IMG/VR virus record: IMGVR_UViG_3300036790_000767
Location: 1 to 24,673 of that record
Reading direction: 5' to 3' (one strand)
Length of the DNA: 24,673 bases
From: a virus
Shown here: positions 3,595 to 23,525 of the stretch, piece after piece
Layout: every line of letters starts with the position of its first letter
Numbering within the stretch: the first letter of the stretch is position 1
Program-made: the position numbers and the translations under genes
Notes under the pieces: generated by a model
What the model was told of the DNA's origin: nothing
Seen by the model: only the letters and a program-made list of their open reading frames with translations
Databases searched by the model: none

Positions 3595-4209
3595 TTACCA
3601 GAGCTGGCAGCTGTTCGAGGCAACCCACTCGACCATGTAGCGCTCGGCGTCCTCACGTGAGGCGTAGCGAACTGGGATCGACTTCATCTTCCGCTTCATG
3701 CTGGCGTCTGTGTACGGGCCTTGCCAGATGCCGAAGCGAGCATTCCAGTAGACTCGCGGAGTCGTTCGAGGGGGACGAGGACCACGTTCTTGTCGGCGCC
3801 TCTTCCTGGTCTCCTGCGATCTACGGTGGGACTCTGGAGTGAGCTTCCAGCCCGGCGTCCAACCTCGCATGTTGGCCTTTTGCTTCGCCTTCGTGGCCTC
3901 GCTGTGCTTCTTGCCTCGTCCTCCACGGCCGCCCTCGTCGAGGTTGTAGAGGCGTACGCCGAGGAAGCGTAAGTAGACGATGTAGAAGGTCTCGGCATCG
4001 TAAGCCTCCTCGTCTGTGTTGAACTCCTCGACGACTTCGAAGGAGAAGCGCTCAGCGCCATACGAGCGAATCGCCTTGTACAAGGGCTGCACACCGCCCA
4101 TCACCGCCGCCTTGAGGTGACCCTGCCAGCGGGAGTCAGGGTGCTTCGTCTTGCCGACGTAGATCGTCCCCGACTCGAGGTTGGTCACCAAGTAGACGGA
4201 GGGCCGCAC
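3595..4209 (-). CDS. GIY-YIG family endonuclease (homing-type)
   Basis: A 204-residue protein with an N-terminal GIY-YIG nuclease core: VYLVTN at residue 5, then IYVGKTKHPDSRWQGH with the catalytic-type Tyr and Arg, a helix containing Tyr-Gly-Ala-Glu-Arg-Phe, and a Glu in DEEAYDAE. After residue 90 a basic NUMOD3-like stretch (GRGGRGKKHSEATKAKQKANM) is typical of DNA-binding tails of phage homing endonucleases. The middle is very basic, and the C-terminus may be a second small domain. Free-standing genes of this type often spread between phages. This one sits beside the attP-like site and the lipoprotein gene, in a strip of accessory genes. Confidence 0.82.
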   Translation of the reverse strand: MRPSVYLVTNLESGTIYVGKTKHPDSRWQGHLKAAVMGGVQPLYKAIRSYGAERFSFEVVEEFNTDEEAYDAETFYIVYLRFLGVRLYNLDEGGRGGRGKKHSEATKAKQKANMRGWTPGWKLTPESHRRSQETRKRRRQERGPRPPRTTPRVYWNARFGIWQGPYTDASMKRKMKSIPVRYASREDAERYMVEWVASNSCQLW

Positions 4210-6626: not shown

Positions 6627-7871
6627 TCAGAACGGCAACGCATTGATCGCCTCCCGCAGCCTGGGCAGGTTGCGCTTGATGTAGTGGGCCGAGGTCACCC
6701 CCTGCTGCGAGTGGCCGGCCAGGTACCTGATCCGCTCCATGTCGATGCCGGCGTTCGACAGGCACGTCATGAAGGTCCTGCGGGCCGCGTGGAAGGTGAA
6801 GGCCACCGCCTGGCCCTCGTCGGTCGCCATCGACGACGGGACGCCGGCTGCGACCAGGTCGTCACGGAAGGTCCGGGCGCCGGTCACGTGTCCGTACTCG
6901 CCTGAGGGCGTCGGGAACACCGCATCCTGCCCACCGGGTGCCCTCGAGAATGCCTTCGCCCAGCCGACGGTGTTCCATGCCTTCATTGCCTCGATCGCTC
7001 GAGGGTGCAGCGGGATGACACGCTTGCTGTCCTTCTTCGGCGGGCGGAAGCCGTCGGGCTTCCACTGGCGGACGACCCTGACGAGGCCCTCCTGCAGATC
7101 CAGGTGCTCCCAGGCCAGGCCGGCGATCTCGGCCGCCCGCATCCCCGTCGACAGGGCCAGCAGGTTGAGGGCACGGCGAGCTGGTGGGACGAGGGGCCCG
7201 TCGTAGGAAGCCACCGCCCTGACGTGCTGCTCGTCGAGGGCGACGATGACGCCCCGCCCGGCCAGCGGCTGCATCCAGTTGCGCAGCCGGGCCTTGACGT
7301 AGGGGTCCAGCATCGGGTTGTCGGGCCGCCTGACCCAGCCCTGCCCCCTGCAGTCGGTGACCAGCTGGCGGAAGCACTGCACCACGTTGCGGACGCTGTA
7401 TGGGGCCAGGCCGCTCTTCGTCCGCATCTCGTCGACCCAGGCCGAGCACAGCGGCACGTCGAGGCCTCGCTCCAGGTCGCAGCGCCACAGTCGAGGGAAG
7501 AACTCCTCGACCCAGCGGCGCAGGGCGCATGCCGAGGCATTGACCTCGCGGTCGCGGGCCTTGGGCAGCAGCTTGCGGTAGGCGACCCAGCGGTCGATGA
7601 CGGAGGCCATGGTGACGACCTCCAGCGGCGAGCGGCGCTTGGGGGTGGGCCCCGTCGCTGGTTCCTCCCCCGTCTGCAGGTAGCGGGCGACCCAGTCGTC
7701 GGACCAGGCCTGCGCCTGGCCGCGGTCCTGGACGGAATTGGGGACGACCTTGTTGCGCCACTTGCCAGTCGATGGGTCACGTAGCTTGATGACCCATGCC
7801 TTCTTGGAAGGGGCGTAGTTGAGACGATACTGTTGTAATGGGCTGTCTTGATCGGCTGTGAGGGACGGCAT
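6627..7871 (-). CDS. int: Tyrosine recombinase (phage integrase)
   Basis: 414 residues with an N-terminal arm-binding region (a three-strand pattern ending KLRDPSTGKWR), a SAM-like core-binding domain around residues 85-190, and a C-terminal catalytic domain. The catalytic set is visible: Arg in STGMRAAE (about 245), Lys in DSKRVIPL (about 283), HxxR in FHAARRTF (His 361, Arg 364), His in YLAGHSQ (387) and the nucleophile Tyr in SAHYIKR (397). Length is normal for the family. ATG at 7871 is preferred to 7967 because the longer form would put the palindromic control region inside coding sequence. It should integrate the phage at attB, probably a tRNA-Cys gene, with the excisionase-like protein helping reversal. 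It reads away from the early operon. Confidence 0.93.
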   Translation of the reverse strand: MPSLTADQDSPLQQYRLNYAPSKKAWVIKLRDPSTGKWRNKVVPNSVQDRGQAQAWSDDWVARYLQTGEEPATGPTPKRRSPLEVVTMASVIDRWVAYRKLLPKARDREVNASACALRRWVEEFFPRLWRCDLERGLDVPLCSAWVDEMRTKSGLAPYSVRNVVQCFRQLVTDCRGQGWVRRPDNPMLDPYVKARLRNWMQPLAGRGVIVALDEQHVRAVASYDGPLVPPARRALNLLALSTGMRAAEIAGLAWEHLDLQEGLVRVVRQWKPDGFRPPKKDSKRVIPLHPRAIEAMKAWNTVGWAKAFSRAPGGQDAVFPTPSGEYGHVTGARTFRDDLVAAGVPSSMATDEGQAVAFTFHAARRTFMTCLSNAGIDMERIRYLAGHSQQGVTSAHYIKRNLPRLREAINALPF

Positions 7872-7926
7872 GATCTCGAACGGTACCAAGCGAGATCGCG
7901 GTGTACACGGGGACAGGGAACTGTCC
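7872..7926. promoter_or_regulatory. Three adjacent palindromes in the int/early-operon control region
   Basis: Directly at the integrase start are arms GATCTCG (7872-7878) and CGAGATC (7891-7897), symmetric around a central GGTACC (7882-7887). Next come GTGTACAC (7901-7908) and then GGACAG-ggaa-CTGTCC (7911-7926). The gap separates divergent genes (integrase minus, early operon plus). Three different operator-like palindromes in 55 bases suggest a lysis-lysogeny switch. The remainder to 8025 holds a TGAACAT element and the Shine-Dalgarno sequence of the next gene. Confidence 0.5.
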
Positions 7927-8025
7927 AAGATCGGAGCTGAATTCAGTCGAGTGAACATCGAGTCCATCGTCGCCCAAACTCTGACTTACCCAGGACTGAC
8001 CCTGGCAGGAAGACGGAGTGACACA

Positions 8026-8367: not shown

Positions 8368-9678
8368 GTGGCCAGGCATCCACAGACCAAGACGTCGCGT
8401 GAGTCGCCTGGCCACGCGTCCGCTGCCTCGGGGGGCAACCCTCGGGGCAGTGCCACATTTGGGCTGCGGAAGTTCCTGGCTGAAGCCATCGAGCAGGTGG
8501 CCACTGCCAGGCCATGGGCCATCAGGCTGCCCATCGACCCACGGGAGCGGCGGCTGGCTGTGGCTGAGGCGACCCACTGGTGGGAGCTGCAGCGGAAGCA
8601 CCCCGTCGTCTTCGTCAGCCACAAGAAGCGGGTGAAGCTGCCGGGCAACAGGTGGTTTAACCCGCCTGCCTTCGCCAAGCAGCAGCCTGCGGCCCTCTTC
8701 CAGGTCAGGAAGCACAGCAAGGGCCAGCGGCCCACCTCGGTCAGGATTGAGCCTGACTTCCACAGGCAGGTGCTGCAGCTCGCCTGCAGGCGCCTGCGAC
8801 AGGCGTCGGTGCTGGGTGCATGCTCGAGCGGGTCCACGTCGTCCACGTCGTCCACGTCGTCCACGTCGTCCACGTCGTCCACGTCGTCCACGTCGTCCAC
8901 GTCGTCCACGTCGTCCGCTGGTATGTGCGCCAGTACAGGTACGAGCGCTGGTCCACGTCCGTCCGCTGGTACGAGAGAGCCCAGCCACCCCAGCCCCCCG
9001 TTGTATGTTGTACCGGTAAACACTCGTTCAGGTATCCGCCACCCGCGGACCTGGCGAGTGGCCGACGCAGCGCAGCAATTGACGAGGTACGAGCGTGGGG
9101 TCGTGTATCGGGGGATGTGGGACAACGACATGCGGAAGGCCCACCCGTCGGTCGTCTGCTCCCTCGCCGGGGAGGCCGTCCCGGCCCTCAGGAGCCTCGT
9201 AGACAATCCCGAGCAGTACCTGGGGCATGGCACTGCCTCACAATTGCCGGTGGCCTTGGTGAAGCTCTACGTCAACCAGCGGTGCATCGGCAGCCCGTGC
9301 ACCGCTTCCCCCAGGCAGAGCTTCGTCCGGACGGCGAAGGAGCTGGGGGTGGGCTACGAGGACGCGGTGTGGGGACTCCGTGCGCTTGACCGACGTCTGG
9401 CCACAGTGTGTGCAGAGATCGACGCCTGGCTGCTGAAGGAGTTCGGGCGCTGCAGGGGACGGGGGTTGCCTCGGACGGCGTCCTGCCTGCTGATGCGGCA
9501 CGAGTCCGTCTTCATCGCAGCCTGCGAGCGGGAGTGTCGGGCACTGGGCATCAGGACGTGGAACCTGCACGATGGCTTCATCAGCGACAAGCAGGTGCCT
9601 GACTACGTCTTCGAGGCCGCCCGGCTGGAGACTGACCTGGTCGACGTCACGATGCGCAGCGAAGTGGTGTCCAAGTGA
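8368..9678 (+). CDS. Putative polymerase-like protein with Ser-Ser-Thr repeat linker
   Basis: 436 residues in three parts. Residues 1-155 form a basic N-terminal domain that I do not recognise. Residues 156-182 are nine Ser-Thr-Ser units, followed by a low-complexity linker to about 225. The C-terminal domain has palm-polymerase-like motifs in the right order: WDNDMRKAHPSV (Asp 252/254; motif A-like), VKLYVNQRCIG (Lys 299, Asn 303, Gly 308; motif B-like) and NLHDGFISD (His 401, Asp 402; motif C-like). A motif C of the HD type belongs to family-A DNA polymerases, T7-type RNA polymerases and the related TV-Pol family of mobile elements. I infer a divergent member of that superfamily, possibly the phage replicative or priming enzyme. 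It is much smaller than family-A polymerases and shows no exonuclease. An unrelated function remains possible. Confidence 0.5.
   Translation: MARHPQTKTSRESPGHASAASGGNPRGSATFGLRKFLAEAIEQVATARPWAIRLPIDPRERRLAVAEATHWWELQRKHPVVFVSHKKRVKLPGNRWFNPPAFAKQQPAALFQVRKHSKGQRPTSVRIEPDFHRQVLQLACRRLRQASVLGACSSGSTSSTSSTSSTSSTSSTSSTSSTSSTSSAGMCASTGTSAGPRPSAGTREPSHPSPPLYVVPVNTRSGIRHPRTWRVADAAQQLTRYERGVVYRGMWDNDMRKAHPSVVCSLAGEAVPALRSLVDNPEQYLGHGTASQLPVALVKLYVNQRCIGSPCTASPRQSFVRTAKELGVGYEDAVWGLRALDRRLATVCAEIDAWLLKEFGRCRGRGLPRTASCLLMRHESVFIAACERECRALGIRTWNLHDGFISDKQVPDYVFEAARLETDLVDVTMRSEVVSK
8833..8913 (+). repeat. Nine perfect 9-bp tandem repeats (coding)
   Basis: TCCACGTCG is repeated nine times without a mismatch, in frame, encoding (Ser-Thr-Ser)9. 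The unit is a multiple of three, so copy-number change alters linker length without frameshift. A degenerate copy of its right edge (TCCACGTC then GTCCGCTGGTA) lies at about 8953-8972. Confidence 0.95.
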
Positions 9679-9749
9679 ACATCAACGCTCGTATCGTTAC
9701 CATCTCTACTTACTTGGCCAACTCGGCTTAGACAGGGAGGTTGGGGATC

Positions 9750-10145
9750 ATGGACATTGAGAAGATCAGGGACGCCATCTCGACGCTGAAGGACAACAAG
9801 CCGACGCACTCCTGGACGTTCAGGTTCAAGGATGGCGCAGACGCCACGGCTGCGGTGCACCGCGAGGTCCGCGAAGGCGTCGCCTACGCCGTCTGCTCAT
9901 GCAACGGCAAGCCGGGCATGGTCTTCAGGGCCGACCGGCTGGTCGAGGGGATCGTGGCCATCGTCACGCAGTTCAGGGCGCCCAATGCGGTGCAGGACGA
10001 GGCGAAGGGGCTGTGGGCCCAGGTGCAGCTGGGGACGGAAGCCATCTGGCTCAACACCACCAGCCGCGGCGGCAAGGTCAATGGCTTCTGCGTCCCCTTG
10101 GAGCAAGTGGAAGGGGTGCTGAAGCTCTTCGAGGACGTGGCGTGA
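9750..10145 (+). CDS. Hypothetical early protein
   Basis: 131 residues, not recognised. ATG at 9750 has a strong GGGAGG nine bases upstream (9735-9740), so the in-frame TTG at 9741 is rejected. A helical N-terminus (DIEKIRDAISTLKD) is followed by beta-strands with a single Cys pair (VCSCNGKPG) and an amphipathic C-terminal helix (LEQVEGVLKLFEDV). The next gene's ATG shares the last A of its TGA stop. The 71-base gap before it carries a TGAACAT element at 9676-9682. Confidence 0.6.
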   Translation: MDIEKIRDAISTLKDNKPTHSWTFRFKDGADATAAVHREVREGVAYAVCSCNGKPGMVFRADRLVEGIVAIVTQFRAPNAVQDEAKGLWAQVQLGTEAIWLNTTSRGGKVNGFCVPLEQVEGVLKLFEDVA

Positions 10146-10777
10146 TGGACGACATCGACATTGCGGCCTACGAGGCACGGCTTGCTCAGAGCATCAAGGA
10201 CTACGCCTTCATCATCCCCCGCCTGCAGGGAACGAAGTTTGTCAGGGGTAACCTCGTCCAAGGGAACATCCAGGAAGACATGGGACGCTGCGCCGACCTG
10301 GTCGATGAAGCTGACCACATCTTCAGCCTGCGAGGGCTGCCCTTCACGGACATCAAGTACTACGGGATGTGGACAGTCAGGCTGTGCCGGTCCGAATGCA
10401 AGGCGACGCCGTACTGCATCGGCCCTGAGAAGACAGTCAAAGACTGCAGGCGACAGGTCGCCAAAGCCAACAGGTGCGACGGATCGATGTCAGGTCATCG
10501 GGGGAACGAGTGGACGAAGCTACGTCTCCATGCTGATTGGCACCTACACTACTGGCGCAATCGGGCTGACAACGACTTCGCGGCGCTCGCCATCATCGAC
10601 GTGAAGAAGTTCTTCGAATACGTCGACACCTGCGATCGCCTCAGCGACTGGTGCTACGAGGACATGGGGGTGAAGCCCGGCAAGGATGGCTGGACCCCCT
10701 TTGTCAATGCCAGGATGTTTGAGGACGACGGGAAGACCAAGAAGCCTTACGTACTTACGTGTTGGCTGGACAAATGA
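10145..10777 (+). CDS. Hypothetical Cys-rich early protein
   Basis: 210 residues, not recognised. Start and stop overlap the neighbours by one and four bases, so it is translated by coupling. The middle has six cysteines within about 50 residues (LCRSEC, PYC, KDC, NRC), with a nearby His in SGHRG and HADWHLHYW. These could bind zinc, iron-sulfur or a metal in a nuclease-like site, but the spacing fits no motif that I know. The C-terminal third (FAALAIIDVKKFFEYVDTC) is helical. Third-position GC is as high as in neighbours, so it does not look recently acquired. Confidence 0.6.
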   Translation: MDDIDIAAYEARLAQSIKDYAFIIPRLQGTKFVRGNLVQGNIQEDMGRCADLVDEADHIFSLRGLPFTDIKYYGMWTVRLCRSECKATPYCIGPEKTVKDCRRQVAKANRCDGSMSGHRGNEWTKLRLHADWHLHYWRNRADNDFAALAIIDVKKFFEYVDTCDRLSDWCYEDMGVKPGKDGWTPFVNARMFEDDGKTKKPYVLTCWLDK

Positions 10778-12761: not shown

Positions 12762-12949
12762 CTGCCAAGGTCATCGACATCGCCGACAGGGACGCCCCCT
12801 GGCTGACGGGCGACGCCGTCTGCGGGGCCTGCGCCCACTACTGCGTCGTGGTGAAGCCTGCCAGCGCACCCGCCCAGTCGCAGTGCCCCAGGTGCAGGCG
12901 AATGTCGCTGCAGTTGATCGACAACGACACGTGGGGGAGCCCGCAGTGA
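12758..12949 (+). CDS. Zinc-ribbon-like small protein
   Basis: 63 residues with two Cys pairs, CGAC near residue 22 and CPRC near residue 43, spaced as in a rubredoxin-type zinc ribbon. A strand-rich segment with His and Cys (HYCVVV) lies between them, and the start region is MTAKVIDIADRDAPWL. Such ribbons are frequent in small phage proteins and can bind nucleic acid or protein. Overlaps on both sides (GTGA) place it in the coupled run. Confidence 0.62.
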   Translation: MTAKVIDIADRDAPWLTGDAVCGACAHYCVVVKPASAPAQSQCPRCRRMSLQLIDNDTWGSPQ

Positions 12950-13983
12950 AGTGCTTCATCCTGGCCCCCAACGAGGGGTGGGTCGTCGATGTGATGGGCC
13001 AAGAGGCCGCCCACGGCCTGCAGCGCCAGGTCACTGCAACAGGTGCAGTGCCCTTCGAGATCACCGCAGACCCCGCTGAAGCCGATGTCATCTGGTTGCT
13101 GGCCTCATGGTGCTGGAAGCAGCTTCCCATCGACCTCCTCCGCCGCAAGCCCGTCCTCAGCACCTTCCACCACATCGTGCCGTGGAAGTGGGACGAGGCC
13201 GCGAAGGACGACTTCAAGGCCCTGACGCAGGTGACCGACTGCTGGTCGTCCTTCGGCGGCGAGGGGTCCAACCAGCTGGCCGCCGCCCTGGGCGCCCTCG
13301 AGCTGAAGCGAGGGCATTGCACGACGAGCTGCAATGCCCCCATGCAGGCCCTGATCCCCTACTGGGAGCGTGAGGCACTGCAGCGACTTGCACGACCCCA
13401 GCCTTCCCTCGAGGCGTTCAGGAAGGCGCACGGCTTGCCAGATGCAGCCTCAGCCTTCTTGGTGGGTTCCTTCCAGAGGGACGGTGAGGGCGTAGACCCC
13501 CTCATCGGCAAGTGGGAGAAGGGCCCAGATCTCCTGTGCGACTTCCTCATCGAGAGATGGAAGCGGTCGCACGATGTGATGGCTGTGCTGGCTGGCTACC
13601 GCCGCGACTACGTGGTGCAGCGACTGACGGAAGCGGGCGTCCCCTTCAAATACTTCGAGAGCTGCAACCAGGAGACGCTCATCACGCTGTACGGGTGCAT
13701 CGACGTCTACGCAGTCAGCTCTCGCTTCGAGGGGGGCCCGCAGGCCCTGGTGGAGTGTGCACAGCTGCGGGTGCCTGCCATCTGTGCCACCCACGTCGGC
13801 ATTGCCTCCCTGGTGCTGCCGCTGGCCAGCATCGGCCCGTCGCTGGGCCAGGCCGTCCCCGCAGTGCCGCTGCTGCCCATCATGATGCGTGGCGAGGTGC
13901 CCTTCCAGCTGGCGGCCCACGTGCTGGAGCAGACGGTGCTGGAGCACGCGCGACGTTGCGACGCGAGGAGGGTAACGACATGA
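12946..13983 (+). CDS. Family 4-type glycosyltransferase (GT-B fold)
   Basis: 345 residues. The C-terminal domain has the hallmarks of glycosyltransferase group 1: FLVGSFQRDGEGVD (loop before the donor site), KGPDLLCDFL, a YFESCNQETLITLYGCIDVYAVSSRFEGGPQALVECAQ-type segment containing the EGGPQ..E donor-binding motif, and VPAICATHVGIA after it. The N-terminal domain is divergent (FILAPNEGWVVD start). The predicted reaction is transfer of a sugar from an NDP donor to an unknown acceptor. It is the second, unrelated glycosyltransferase in the window and sits inside the early operon, so it acts early, perhaps on host surface or nucleic-acid targets, unlike the one next to the fibre. GTG start in a GTGA overlap. 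Confidence 0.78.
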   Translation: MKCFILAPNEGWVVDVMGQEAAHGLQRQVTATGAVPFEITADPAEADVIWLLASWCWKQLPIDLLRRKPVLSTFHHIVPWKWDEAAKDDFKALTQVTDCWSSFGGEGSNQLAAALGALELKRGHCTTSCNAPMQALIPYWEREALQRLARPQPSLEAFRKAHGLPDAASAFLVGSFQRDGEGVDPLIGKWEKGPDLLCDFLIERWKRSHDVMAVLAGYRRDYVVQRLTEAGVPFKYFESCNQETLITLYGCIDVYAVSSRFEGGPQALVECAQLRVPAICATHVGIASLVLPLASIGPSLGQAVPAVPLLPIMMRGEVPFQLAAHVLEQTVLEHARRCDARRVTT

Positions 13984-14102
13984 GCGTGAAGTACTTCAGC
14001 ATGGCTGAACTGGATGCCCGCATCGTGGCGCGGCATGTCGAGGCTGAGAGGGATCGCCGCGTCAGGTGCCTGCTGGACAATGGGGAGAATCCCCGCGGAT
14101 GA
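13980..14102 (+). CDS. KYFSM mini-protein, copy 2
   Basis: 40 residues, starting four bases inside the glycosyltransferase stop (ATGA). It is a shortened paralogue of the product at 12582-12761: KYFSMAELDARIVARHVEAE and the following Arg-Asp-Arg-Arg match, while the C-terminal extension is missing. A GGGGA-gaa-TCCCC hairpin (14082-14094) at its end has no T-run. Last gene of the plus operon, 18 bases from the convergent adaptor gene. Confidence 0.55.
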   Translation: MSVKYFSMAELDARIVARHVEAERDRRVRCLLDNGENPRG

Positions 14103-14120
14103 ACCAAGGCTTCTCGGTCG

Positions 14121-14834
14121 TCAGTACCCGTAGCCGCCGCCGTACAGCGTCGGCACCACGATCAGGTTGCCCGCCTCGGGCCCCACGTAGCCGTAGGACG
14201 GTGCTGCCCAGGTGGCCCCGCCCGGCGACAGGCCGAAGGGCGCCAGCCCAGCGAAGCCCGCCTGCCTGCCCCGCCACGGGTCGAGGATGAGGCCCTGGTC
14301 GACGTTGCGGTTGGGGGAGGCGTGGTCGATGCGCTCTTGCACCCGCTGCCGCTGCGCGGCGAAGGGCGAGCTGTCGAGGCCCAGCATGTCCATGACGGTG
14401 CACGACACGTCGAGGCTGATCCACTCCCACCAGCCCGAGCCGTCGAAGAACTCCGGCAGCGGGTCCGACAGCTGCTGCACCGCCGGCATGTTGGGGTAGT
14501 AGCGCAGCCGGTACGTCCCGTTGACGGGCCCGACGGCGCCGTTGCGCTGGCTGTATGGCAGCTTGTCGACGTTCGTCCAGAAGCTGCTGTTCTGCCGCTC
14601 GAAGCCCCTCAACCTGTTGAAGTCCGAAGGAAGGGGGAAGAGGTTGGTGCTGCCGGCCAGCGAGGCCGTCGAGTAGCTGACCGTGTAGATCTCGCGGTCG
14701 ATGACCATGTCGTAGAGGTGCAGCGCGGAGCTGTTGATCCAGCTGACCAGCGTGGCGTCGCTCGGGTTCTGGGCGTTGCCCTTGTTGGTCCTCGCCCTGA
14801 CGTCGGCGGCGACGGTGCCTGCTGTCAGTGCCAT
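14121..14834 (-). CDS. Head-tail adaptor-like structural protein
   Basis: 237 residues. The opening pattern (a helix with DVRARTNKG, then SDATLVSWINSSALHLYDMVI, then a PLPSDFNRLRGFE segment) resembles gp4/gp6-type adaptors and head-completion proteins that sit under the portal. The centre is strand-rich (YRLRYYPNMPAVQQ) and the end is Gly/Tyr-rich. Place in the late operon, after capsid and accessory genes, agrees with a connector function. It could instead be a minor tail protein. Confidence 0.55.
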   Translation of the reverse strand: MALTAGTVAADVRARTNKGNAQNPSDATLVSWINSSALHLYDMVIDREIYTVSYSTASLAGSTNLFPLPSDFNRLRGFERQNSSFWTNVDKLPYSQRNGAVGPVNGTYRLRYYPNMPAVQQLSDPLPEFFDGSGWWEWISLDVSCTVMDMLGLDSSPFAAQRQRVQERIDHASPNRNVDQGLILDPWRGRQAGFAGLAPFGLSPGGATWAAPSYGYVGPEAGNLIVVPTLYGGGYGY

Positions 14835-21602: not shown

Positions 21603-23525
21603 TCAGGTTCCGGGGGCATTGGGAAGGGCAGGCGACTGGGGCGCTGCCATGGGCTGGCCGAGGGGCGAGCCCTGCGGCGAAGTGGGCGCTCCCGGGGCCT
21701 GTCCTGGGCCCATCGTCGGCGCTGAGTACTCCAGCATCTTGGCCTGGAGGGACCGGTAGAACTGGTCGAGGAGGGCCAGCGCCTCCTCATCCCGCTCCTC
21801 GTCGCACAGCATCATGTTGTACTCCTGGCGGGTCACCGTCAGCACCTGCTGGCACTGGGCCGGGTCGTCCTTGGGCAGCAGGTACTCGTCCGGGGCGCAG
21901 AGGACGGGGTCGCGCTGGTGGTCGTAGAAGCCCTCGATGGCCCGGTCGAGGCGCTCCCACCAGCTGAGGATGCGGCGCTCGTTGGCCTCCACGTCAGGCT
22001 GGTCGTAGACCCTGAGGAGGGTCATCCGGTCGAGGATGCCGGCCTGCGCCAGCTCCGTTGCGTACTCCTTGCGGCCCGCCGGGGTGCGGGGCAGGTCGTT
22101 GGTGGCGAAGCTGGCGACTGTGTACTGGTCCCTGTCGAGGGAGCAGTCGGACCACTTGATCGACTTCAGGAACTTGGCGCCCTTGGCGCTGGGGCTGACG
22201 CCCTCCCTGGCGACCCGCATCCGGGTCAGCTCGATGACGGACCGGGCGACCTGCTCGTAGAACCTGTCCCTGCGGTTGCCGAACTGGGAGAGCCTGATCG
22301 ACTGGTTGTCCCGGTACTCCTGCAGCGCAGTGCCGCTGGTGACGCCGGCAGGCTTGGTGGCGTTGACGGCCCCCTCGTTGACGCCGACGTACTGGTAGGC
22401 CCACTGCTTCCAGCCTTCCAGCATGGTGTAGAAGGCGCCGTCGCCCATGATGGGCAGGTTGAGGGACTCGGGCTTGCCGCCGCCGGCACTCGCCTTGTAG
22501 GTCAGGATGTTGCGCCCGCTGCTGAACTGGCTCTCGCTGATCATGGCCCCCTCCGGCATGGCCACGCGGGGGATGGCCGTCATCCGGTAGCTGGTCACCC
22601 AGGTGCGGACCATGTCGTCGACCAGCTGCTGCTGGCGGAAGAGCATCTGCGCCACGCCGACGCCCCACCACGACAGCGGGTCCTCCTGGAAGCGCAGCTC
22701 CACGACGGGGAAGAAGTCGAGCTTCCACTCCTCTTCGAAGAGGATGCCTCCTGAGACGCAGACGACGTGCTTGCCGTCTTCGGTGGCCGGGCCCGACGGC
22801 AGCCGCCAGGCCTCGATGACGCCCCGGGTCTGGCCCAGGGTGACGGTGGGGGAGCGGGCGCTGACGGCGCGGCCGATGGGCTCCGACGATGACCCCTCGA
22901 TGACGTCGGCCTTGTCCGGGTAGGCTTCCTTCAGCTGCTGCAGGTCGGCCCGGTAGGTGTGGGCCAGCTCCCTGGGGCGCTTCATCATCCCCCACTGGGG
23001 GTCGACGAGGATGTCCGACGGGAAGACGCGCTCCACCACGATGTCGCCCGACAGGTCCTCCATGACCTTGACGTAGCCGGTGCCTGCGTAGACGGCGTCG
23101 ACCTCGGCACGAGGGGCCTCGCTGCTGATGCGGGCCCCGTCGATCTCGCCGTCGTAGTACTGCGTCAGCTTCCTGGCCCGGCGCTGCGTCTTGCTCCTGG
23201 CGTCGGTGCTGGCGAAGGTGATGCGAGGCATGTCCTTCAGCGTCTGGCTGGCGACGGCCTCAGTGCAGCTGTTGACGAGGTTGTAGGTGGCGCCTGCCCC
23301 GTAGCTGGAGGCCAGCATGGCCACGTTGGGCCCAGTGGAGCCGAGGAGCGACGACGACAGGTCGATGTAGCGCTGCCGCCACATGAAGAATGCCAGCCGC
23401 TGGCTGCTGATGAGGTCAGCGACCCGGACGTAGAACGACCAGCACTGCTTGCCGCAGTCGTCGCCCTCCCGCTTCCACCACGGTTCGTTCAGCGCGGTGA
23501 CCTTGTTGTTCGGCTTCTTGGCCAT
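21603..23525 (-). CDS. Portal protein
   Basis: 640 residues, the size of P22/T7-type portals. Recognisable portal features are a helical start with RLAFFMWRQRYIDLSSSLLG, a TYNLVNSCTEAVASQTLKD helix, a KVMEDLSGDIVVERVFPSDI-type strand pair followed by LVDPQWGMMKRPRELA, a long central helix (LFRQQQLVDDMVRTWVTSYR), TSGTALQEYRDNQSIRLSQF and a C-terminal helical barrel-like region with Asp/Glu-rich coils. It forms the dodecameric vertex through which terminase packs DNA. The tail (Pro/Gln/Gly-rich) is probably disordered. The start overlaps the upstream gene's TGA (TGATG). Confidence 0.82.
   Translation of the reverse strand: MAKKPNNKVTALNEPWWKREGDDCGKQCWSFYVRVADLISSQRLAFFMWRQRYIDLSSSLLGSTGPNVAMLASSYGAGATYNLVNSCTEAVASQTLKDMPRITFASTDARSKTQRRARKLTQYYDGEIDGARISSEAPRAEVDAVYAGTGYVKVMEDLSGDIVVERVFPSDILVDPQWGMMKRPRELAHTYRADLQQLKEAYPDKADVIEGSSSEPIGRAVSARSPTVTLGQTRGVIEAWRLPSGPATEDGKHVVCVSGGILFEEEWKLDFFPVVELRFQEDPLSWWGVGVAQMLFRQQQLVDDMVRTWVTSYRMTAIPRVAMPEGAMISESQFSSGRNILTYKASAGGGKPESLNLPIMGDGAFYTMLEGWKQWAYQYVGVNEGAVNATKPAGVTSGTALQEYRDNQSIRLSQFGNRRDRFYEQVARSVIELTRMRVAREGVSPSAKGAKFLKSIKWSDCSLDRDQYTVASFATNDLPRTPAGRKEYATELAQAGILDRMTLLRVYDQPDVEANERRILSWWERLDRAIEGFYDHQRDPVLCAPDEYLLPKDDPAQCQQVLTVTRQEYNMMLCDEERDEEALALLDQFYRSLQAKMLEYSAPTMGPGQAPGAPTSPQGSPLGQPMAAPQSPALPNAPGT

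Follow-up and report, generated by a model that had tools for sequence, protein, structure and literature searches.

In this study, we found that an open reading frame on the plus strand of a 24,673-bp virus record (the window, that is, the whole stretch of DNA analysed) encodes a protein whose C-terminal domain (about residues 217-436), from its sequence and a predicted model, most plausibly represents a family A palm of the TV-Pol kind that has diverged greatly. The explanation that we favour, and hold to be probable, is a stand-alone phage polymerase of this kind which would use two-metal catalysis for primer making or extension in phage replication. Judged by its sequence, the protein is most likely a TV-Pol-like primase/polymerase with predicted activity, which would work like the TV-Pols and descend from or beside them; canonical membership is not assigned. 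This reading is based on the order and spacing of the sequence blocks, the block score and conditional p values, a BLASTP match to the viral protein L099, the palm predicted by AF2, the matches found by Foldseek and VIA, and the priming activity of CcPol. Against it stand the missing motif B lysine, the weak Foldseek match in the PDB, the lack of a helicase in the window, and the lack of a relative among plasmids and reference phages. The features of the gene and of two neighbours are as follows.

8368-9678, plus strand: gene of the TV-Pol-like protein, 436 aa, GTG start (translation, coding-frame scan, TV-Pol block score)
8455-8817, plus strand: N-terminal domain, residues about 30-150, without recognised family
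8821-9012, plus strand: Ser/Thr-rich and then Pro-rich linker, residues 152-215 (translation)
8832-8916, plus strand: perfect 9-bp tandem repeat, GTCCACGTC x 9.4, frame-preserving, encoding the first part of the linker (Tandem Repeats Finder)
9073-9096, plus strand: hairpin block Q236-x6-R243, at the template-contact Arg position of TV-Pols (Q and R invariant in alignments A1 and A3)
9121-9150, plus strand: motif A, D252-N-D254-MRKAHPS (alignments A1, A3 and A5; model strand 35-39)
9262-9291, plus strand: K299-LYVN303-QRCI-G308, motif B of the first-pass annotation; equivalent helix without the invariant TV-Pol lysine
9484-9531, plus strand: E379 block LLMRHESVFI, counterpart of TV-Pol LLQGVES (E invariant in A1, A3 and A5; long model helix)
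9568-9579, plus strand: motif C, H401-D402-G403-F404 (DG invariant in A1, A3 and A5; turn of a beta hairpin)
6627-7967, minus strand: tyrosine integrase adjoining the polymerase-like gene (Pfam PF00589, 4e-20; PHROG integrase, 1e-42)
9741-10145, plus strand: 134-aa downstream gene, a candidate partner only (no significant family match)

The codon-usage scan preferred the frame of this gene to the five other frames on both sides of the linker, the linker itself being uninformative because it is repeat-encoded. Thus, the translation and the scan agree with the first-pass annotation, made from the sequence alone, that the ORF is truly coding and carries D252/D254 with AHP (252-260), K299xxxN303xxxxG308 and H401-D402-G403. 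The Ser-Thr repeat linker that it described is likewise real, being encoded by the GTCCACGTC repeat, which is the sole tandem array detected in the window by Tandem Repeats Finder. The length of the linker could vary by slippage of this frame-preserving repeat; alternatively, the number of copies may reflect faulty assembly. The N-domain gave no family match outside the low-complexity linker in Pfam, PHROG and PDB-sequence searches, as expected from its description as a fused, unrecognised domain, and no profile match to the N-terminal regions of known TV-Pols. Before the hairpin, where TV-Pols carry a thumb module of two antiparallel helices, the protein has the Ser-Thr/Pro linker.

Described in 2008 by Iyer, Abhiman and Aravind, the TV-Pol family includes a member in Microcystis phage Ma-LMM01 (PMC2579912). 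From its position beside two transposases and its YDVVKCH, K-x7-NG and HDG motifs, we take gp030 to be the putative TV-Pol of that phage. A tblastn chain in which our ORF protein was not used led from gp030 to two Polaromonas plasmid proteins, first H8N and, through it, W9N. Five viral relatives (L010, L099, L107, L109 and L110) were obtained with two DNA patterns, one for the motif A of the window and then one for a relative so found; L112 was added by a conserved-block search, and a protein of Desulfovibrio phage SRB7757 was reached through L099. L010 carries a fused D5-type helicase domain (DUF5906), as would be expected for a TV-Pol, and an HMM of the five pattern-derived proteins matches gp030 at 7e-4; therefore, the sets belong together. 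Motif A is partly selected, since four of the six relatives used for modelling were fetched by patterns with the same motif A letters, whereas the hairpin and E blocks are not. The viral proteins at L107:5732-7933 (-), L109:4216-6711 (-), L110:6200-8461 (+) and L112:4803-7040 (+) are 734-832 aa long with a TV-Pol-like N-terminal half.

The key residues of the protein are Q236, R243, D252, D254, H259, K299, N303, E379, H401, D402 and G403. In the alignments with TV-Pol relatives, Q236, R243, D254, H259, E379, D402 and G403 are all invariant, as is D252 in two sets. D254 and D402 align to invariant Asp columns of ten TV-Pols and lie on neighbouring strands of the model, and D254 is the predicted metal ligand of motif A. 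Of the aspartates to which the first-pass annotation had assigned catalysis, Asp254 and Asp402 are upheld; Asp252 is probably not catalytic, because relatives substitute it (NYD in Ma-LMM01, SVD in phage SRB7757). The spacing also follows that of the ten TV-Pols, with 18 residues from Q to D (18-20 in the family), 147 from D to H (125-190) and 22 from E to H (16-24); only the distance from D254 to N303, 49 residues, falls outside the family range (50-59).

A five-block TV-Pol model gave the protein 40.7 bits, as compared to -4.7 for the second-ranked ORF in the window, 17.4 for the best of 1,293 unrelated ORFs from the fetched viral loci, and a maximum of 12.0 in 4,000 shuffles of its own C-domain, so the motif ensemble does exceed chance. 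TV-Pols withheld from the model scored 42-124, one phage TV-Pol among them reaching 42.1. Because the first-pass annotation and the initial pattern had pre-selected motif A and HDG, a conditional test was performed in which both were held fixed and the remainder was shuffled. With all ten members, the hairpin (p = 0.0027) and the E block (p = 0.0025) were significant, with a joint p of about 5e-5. With only the independently found TV-Pols (Ma-LMM01, Polaromonas H8N and W9N), the joint p was 1.5e-3 and the signal was carried by the E block, the hairpin alone giving p = 0.10. The upstream TV-Pol element 'GR.[YF]' was not significant in the protein (R227-T-W229, p 0.36).

When the protein was aligned locally to each of the ten TV-Pol cores, seven of them gave z values of 4.4-7.9 against shuffled controls and the other three about -0.2 to 2.9. 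BLASTP against L099 alone gave a pairwise 6e-4 over the hairpin and motif A. Sequence identity to the relatives is 16-21% and the family libraries are blank, consistent with great divergence. Profile-profile comparison, the check that had been proposed, is favourable in its E value (0.0019, hhalign against a five-member profile over the full length) but weak in its probability (just 14.5). Taken as an ensemble, these sequence comparisons make the kinship with TV-Pols well supported, and no single search suffices for it.

Searches for homologues, from which records very near the window were possibly excluded, were otherwise negative. The whole protein gave only low-complexity or non-significant matches in Pfam, PHROGs and PDB sequences, tblastn gave nothing credible among 50,697 phage and 72,556 plasmid records, and direct scans of viral contigs and genome contigs yielded no relative. 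The best tblastn match lay in Caulobacter phage CcrPW (E 3), across the end of a hypothetical gene of 273 bp, and was dropped; the matches of a motif C pattern scan were chance ORFs only. A search with the capsid protein found no sister phages.

The assignment of KxxxNxxxxG as motif B did not survive comparison. A lysine eight residues ahead of the N/Y position is present in 10 of 10 TV-Pol relatives, and the protein has Val there; K299 sits four residues ahead of N303. Within the RxxxK form of the motif, R occurs in just two of the ten relatives and K in all of them. Neither RxxxK nor K-x6-8-[NYF] occurs between motif A and E379 of the protein, the family A (Pol I type) motif B R-x3-K-x6-YG is absent from it, and in the conditional test block B was at chance level (p = 0.61). 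In the Klenow and T7 enzymes, the motif B lysine grips the triphosphate. Thus, K299xxxN303 is present as letters but is not the TV-Pol motif B, and may represent either decay or a lysine that has moved. Another candidate for motif B, V320-R343 (KELGVGYEDAVWGL), was rejected; it likewise has no lysine and needs about 30 additional residues past motif A.

AF2 from the single sequence was unusable (pLDDT 38). When given six viral relatives it predicted a palm (mean pLDDT 67, pTM 0.62), with 85-95 in the C-terminal palm part and fingers below 50-60. The order of elements is the motif A strand, helices, the long E379 helix, a beta hairpin with HDG at its turn between strands 181-184 and 187-190, a helix and a strand; the Q236-R243 region is drawn as helices, not as a hairpin. 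The top Foldseek match in the viral library is the DNA replication protein of Zamilon virophage (E 1.9e-5), followed by a 400-aa phage protein (9.7e-5). In the PDB, family A polymerases come first, although the best E value is weak (5e-3). VIA placed KlenTaq first (Z 9.9, 201 residues, 4.3 A), then T7 DNA polymerase, Pol theta and mitochondrial RNA polymerases; middling Z values are common with VIA, and helical fingers inflate them. The model thus has a family A palm fold in the C-terminal domain, and together with the block tests it agrees with the first-pass proposal of a family A/TV-Pol type palm polymerase at residues 225-436. It is not independent proof, because its alignment contains TV-Pols and the single-sequence prediction failed.

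The gene is carried by a temperate phage, whose genes include the adjoining integrase, a terminase, an SU10-like portal and a weak match to the SU10 adaptor. The contig may be incomplete, since genes run off the record at either end. In the window we recognised no further polymerase, primase or helicase, which accords with the expectation of no second replicative polymerase as far as a possibly incomplete contig can tell, and among window ORFs of at least 60 codons the only recognised ATPase with a Walker A motif is the terminase. The neighbouring genes of 134 aa (9741-10145) and 212 aa (10139-10777) have no family match, nor has the capsid protein. Elsewhere in the window lie a group 1 glycosyltransferase-like gene (12883-13983, plus strand; Pfam PF00534, 1.4e-6) and a GIY-YIG homing endonuclease-like gene (3595-4209, minus strand; PHROG 2e-27), and the genes at 14121-14834 and 21603-23525 (both minus strand) account for the SU10-like portal (Pfam 3e-8) and the sub-threshold SU10 adaptor match.

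Among known systems, the protein shares with TV-Pols such as Ma-LMM01 gp030 and the Sputnik/Zamilon replication protein the hairpin Q-x6-R, motif A D-x4-H, the E block, (H/F)DG and their spacing, as well as a family A palm model, an uncharacterised N-terminal region and a mobile-element setting with an integrase gene close by. TV-Pols are associated with D5-like helicases, or with resolvases, integrases or transposases. Unlike them, it has neither the motif B lysine nor a fused or nearby D5 helicase, and its N-domain is not detectably related. The L099 protein (13033-14202, minus strand, of IMG/VR 3300036985_007718), an unannotated, stand-alone TV-Pol-like protein of 389 aa, resembles it in being unfused, of similar size and on a tailed-phage contig, but has an RKAAK-x7-YG motif B (the RxxxK-x7-YG form) and FDG; no other gene of its phage matches the window phage at 1e-3. 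L099 is the better bench subject. Given its length, the 430 aa of divPolA2 AUR84708 and the 400-600 aa of published TV-Pols (PMC2579912), 436 residues is not unusually small, contrary to the first impression. The CcPol-MP primase of SCC elements (Bebel 2020; Rice 2023), counted among TV-Pols, also combines a family A catalytic domain with a mobile element; its primase activity has been shown biochemically and requires the OB-fold partner MP (PMC10061031). It is likened to our protein by description, and no MP-type partner was identified in the window.

A TV-Pol descendant with a degenerate palm, catalytically dead or nearly so and now used to bind DNA or as a scaffold when the phage replicates or controls its replication, would account for the loss of the invariant fingers lysine and for block B at chance level, and mobile-element Pols cut to little beyond the RRM core have been considered possibly vestigial (Rice 2023, PMC10061031). 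Nevertheless, at an identity of 16-21% the protein retains the two catalytic aspartates together with the hairpin Arg, the E block and HDG, which suggests selection on the active site, and K299, one helical turn from the expected place, might substitute for the lysine; we therefore regard such decay as unlikely, if still worth considering. The opposite view of the fingers is a separate branch of small phage primase-polymerases in which the O-helix lysine has moved by one helical turn (K299), the thumb has been replaced by the Ser-Thr-tethered N-domain, and slippage of the 9-bp repeat varies the linker. A new branch, as had been suggested, is possible; in this elaborate form it is speculative, and we would give it only a modest chance.

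A quite improbable reading is a repair polymerase or an RNA polymerase, as proposed for divPolA2 of Barba and Vibrio phages (Virol J 2024, PMC11348598), instead of a replication primase. divPolA2 is likewise stand-alone and of similar size, with an uncharacterised N-terminal domain and a palm without a normal thumb, and Barba-phage divPolA2-like proteins are among the viral-library fold matches, as are mitochondrial RNA polymerases among those of VIA. However, the similarity of the protein to AUR84708 is not significant (z 1.1), divPolA2 has a block score of 10.0, has VFDE where HDG is expected and retains a K-x7-Y helix, and a regular PolB accompanies it in barbaviruses. In our contig, which may be incomplete, we found no second polymerase to take the replication role. 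That motif A, K..N and HDG are a chance coincidence in an unrelated phage orphan is very unlikely too: the protein escapes every family library and sequence search, motif B fails and the full-length profile comparison is weak, but the block score and conditional tests, the palm model and seven of ten alignments above 4 SD argue otherwise. A family B-like palm is hardly credible. The motif A resembles DxxSLYPS, Foldseek also lists some family B polymerases, and the family B motif B, KxxxNSxYG, is similar in letters and spacing to K299xxxN303; yet HDG stands where the DTD motif C would be expected, TV-Pols share the same motif A, and family A heads every structural list, with family B rows at rmsd 11-17 A in Foldseek.

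For the favoured TV-Pol-like polymerase, we infer catalysis, priming, a role in phage replication and a job for the N-domain along the following lines. By homology, D254 of motif A and D402 of HDG in the C-terminal palm would hold two metal ions for two-metal nucleotidyl transfer, and the hairpin Arg243 would steady the template. By analogy with TV-Pols, which have been predicted to be primase-polymerases (PMC2579912), and with CcPol, a TV-Pol that needs its partner MP to prime DNA and is otherwise limited to primer extension (PMC10061031), primers would probably be made or extended at the origin of the phage, leaving the host replisome to complete the copying. The N-domain, on its flexible Ser-Thr linker, may bind DNA or a partner and substitute for the thumb.

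In summary, the TV-Pol kind would be extended to a phage that has an integrase and an SU10-like portal, with a degree of divergence beyond the reach of family libraries and of sequence searches in phages, plasmids, viral contigs and genomes. If the protein is inactive, it would be an example of the decay of a phage palm. If it is active, the lysine found in all ten compared relatives would be dispensable for a working family A palm, and the protein would be a minimal stand-alone primase/polymerase to study.
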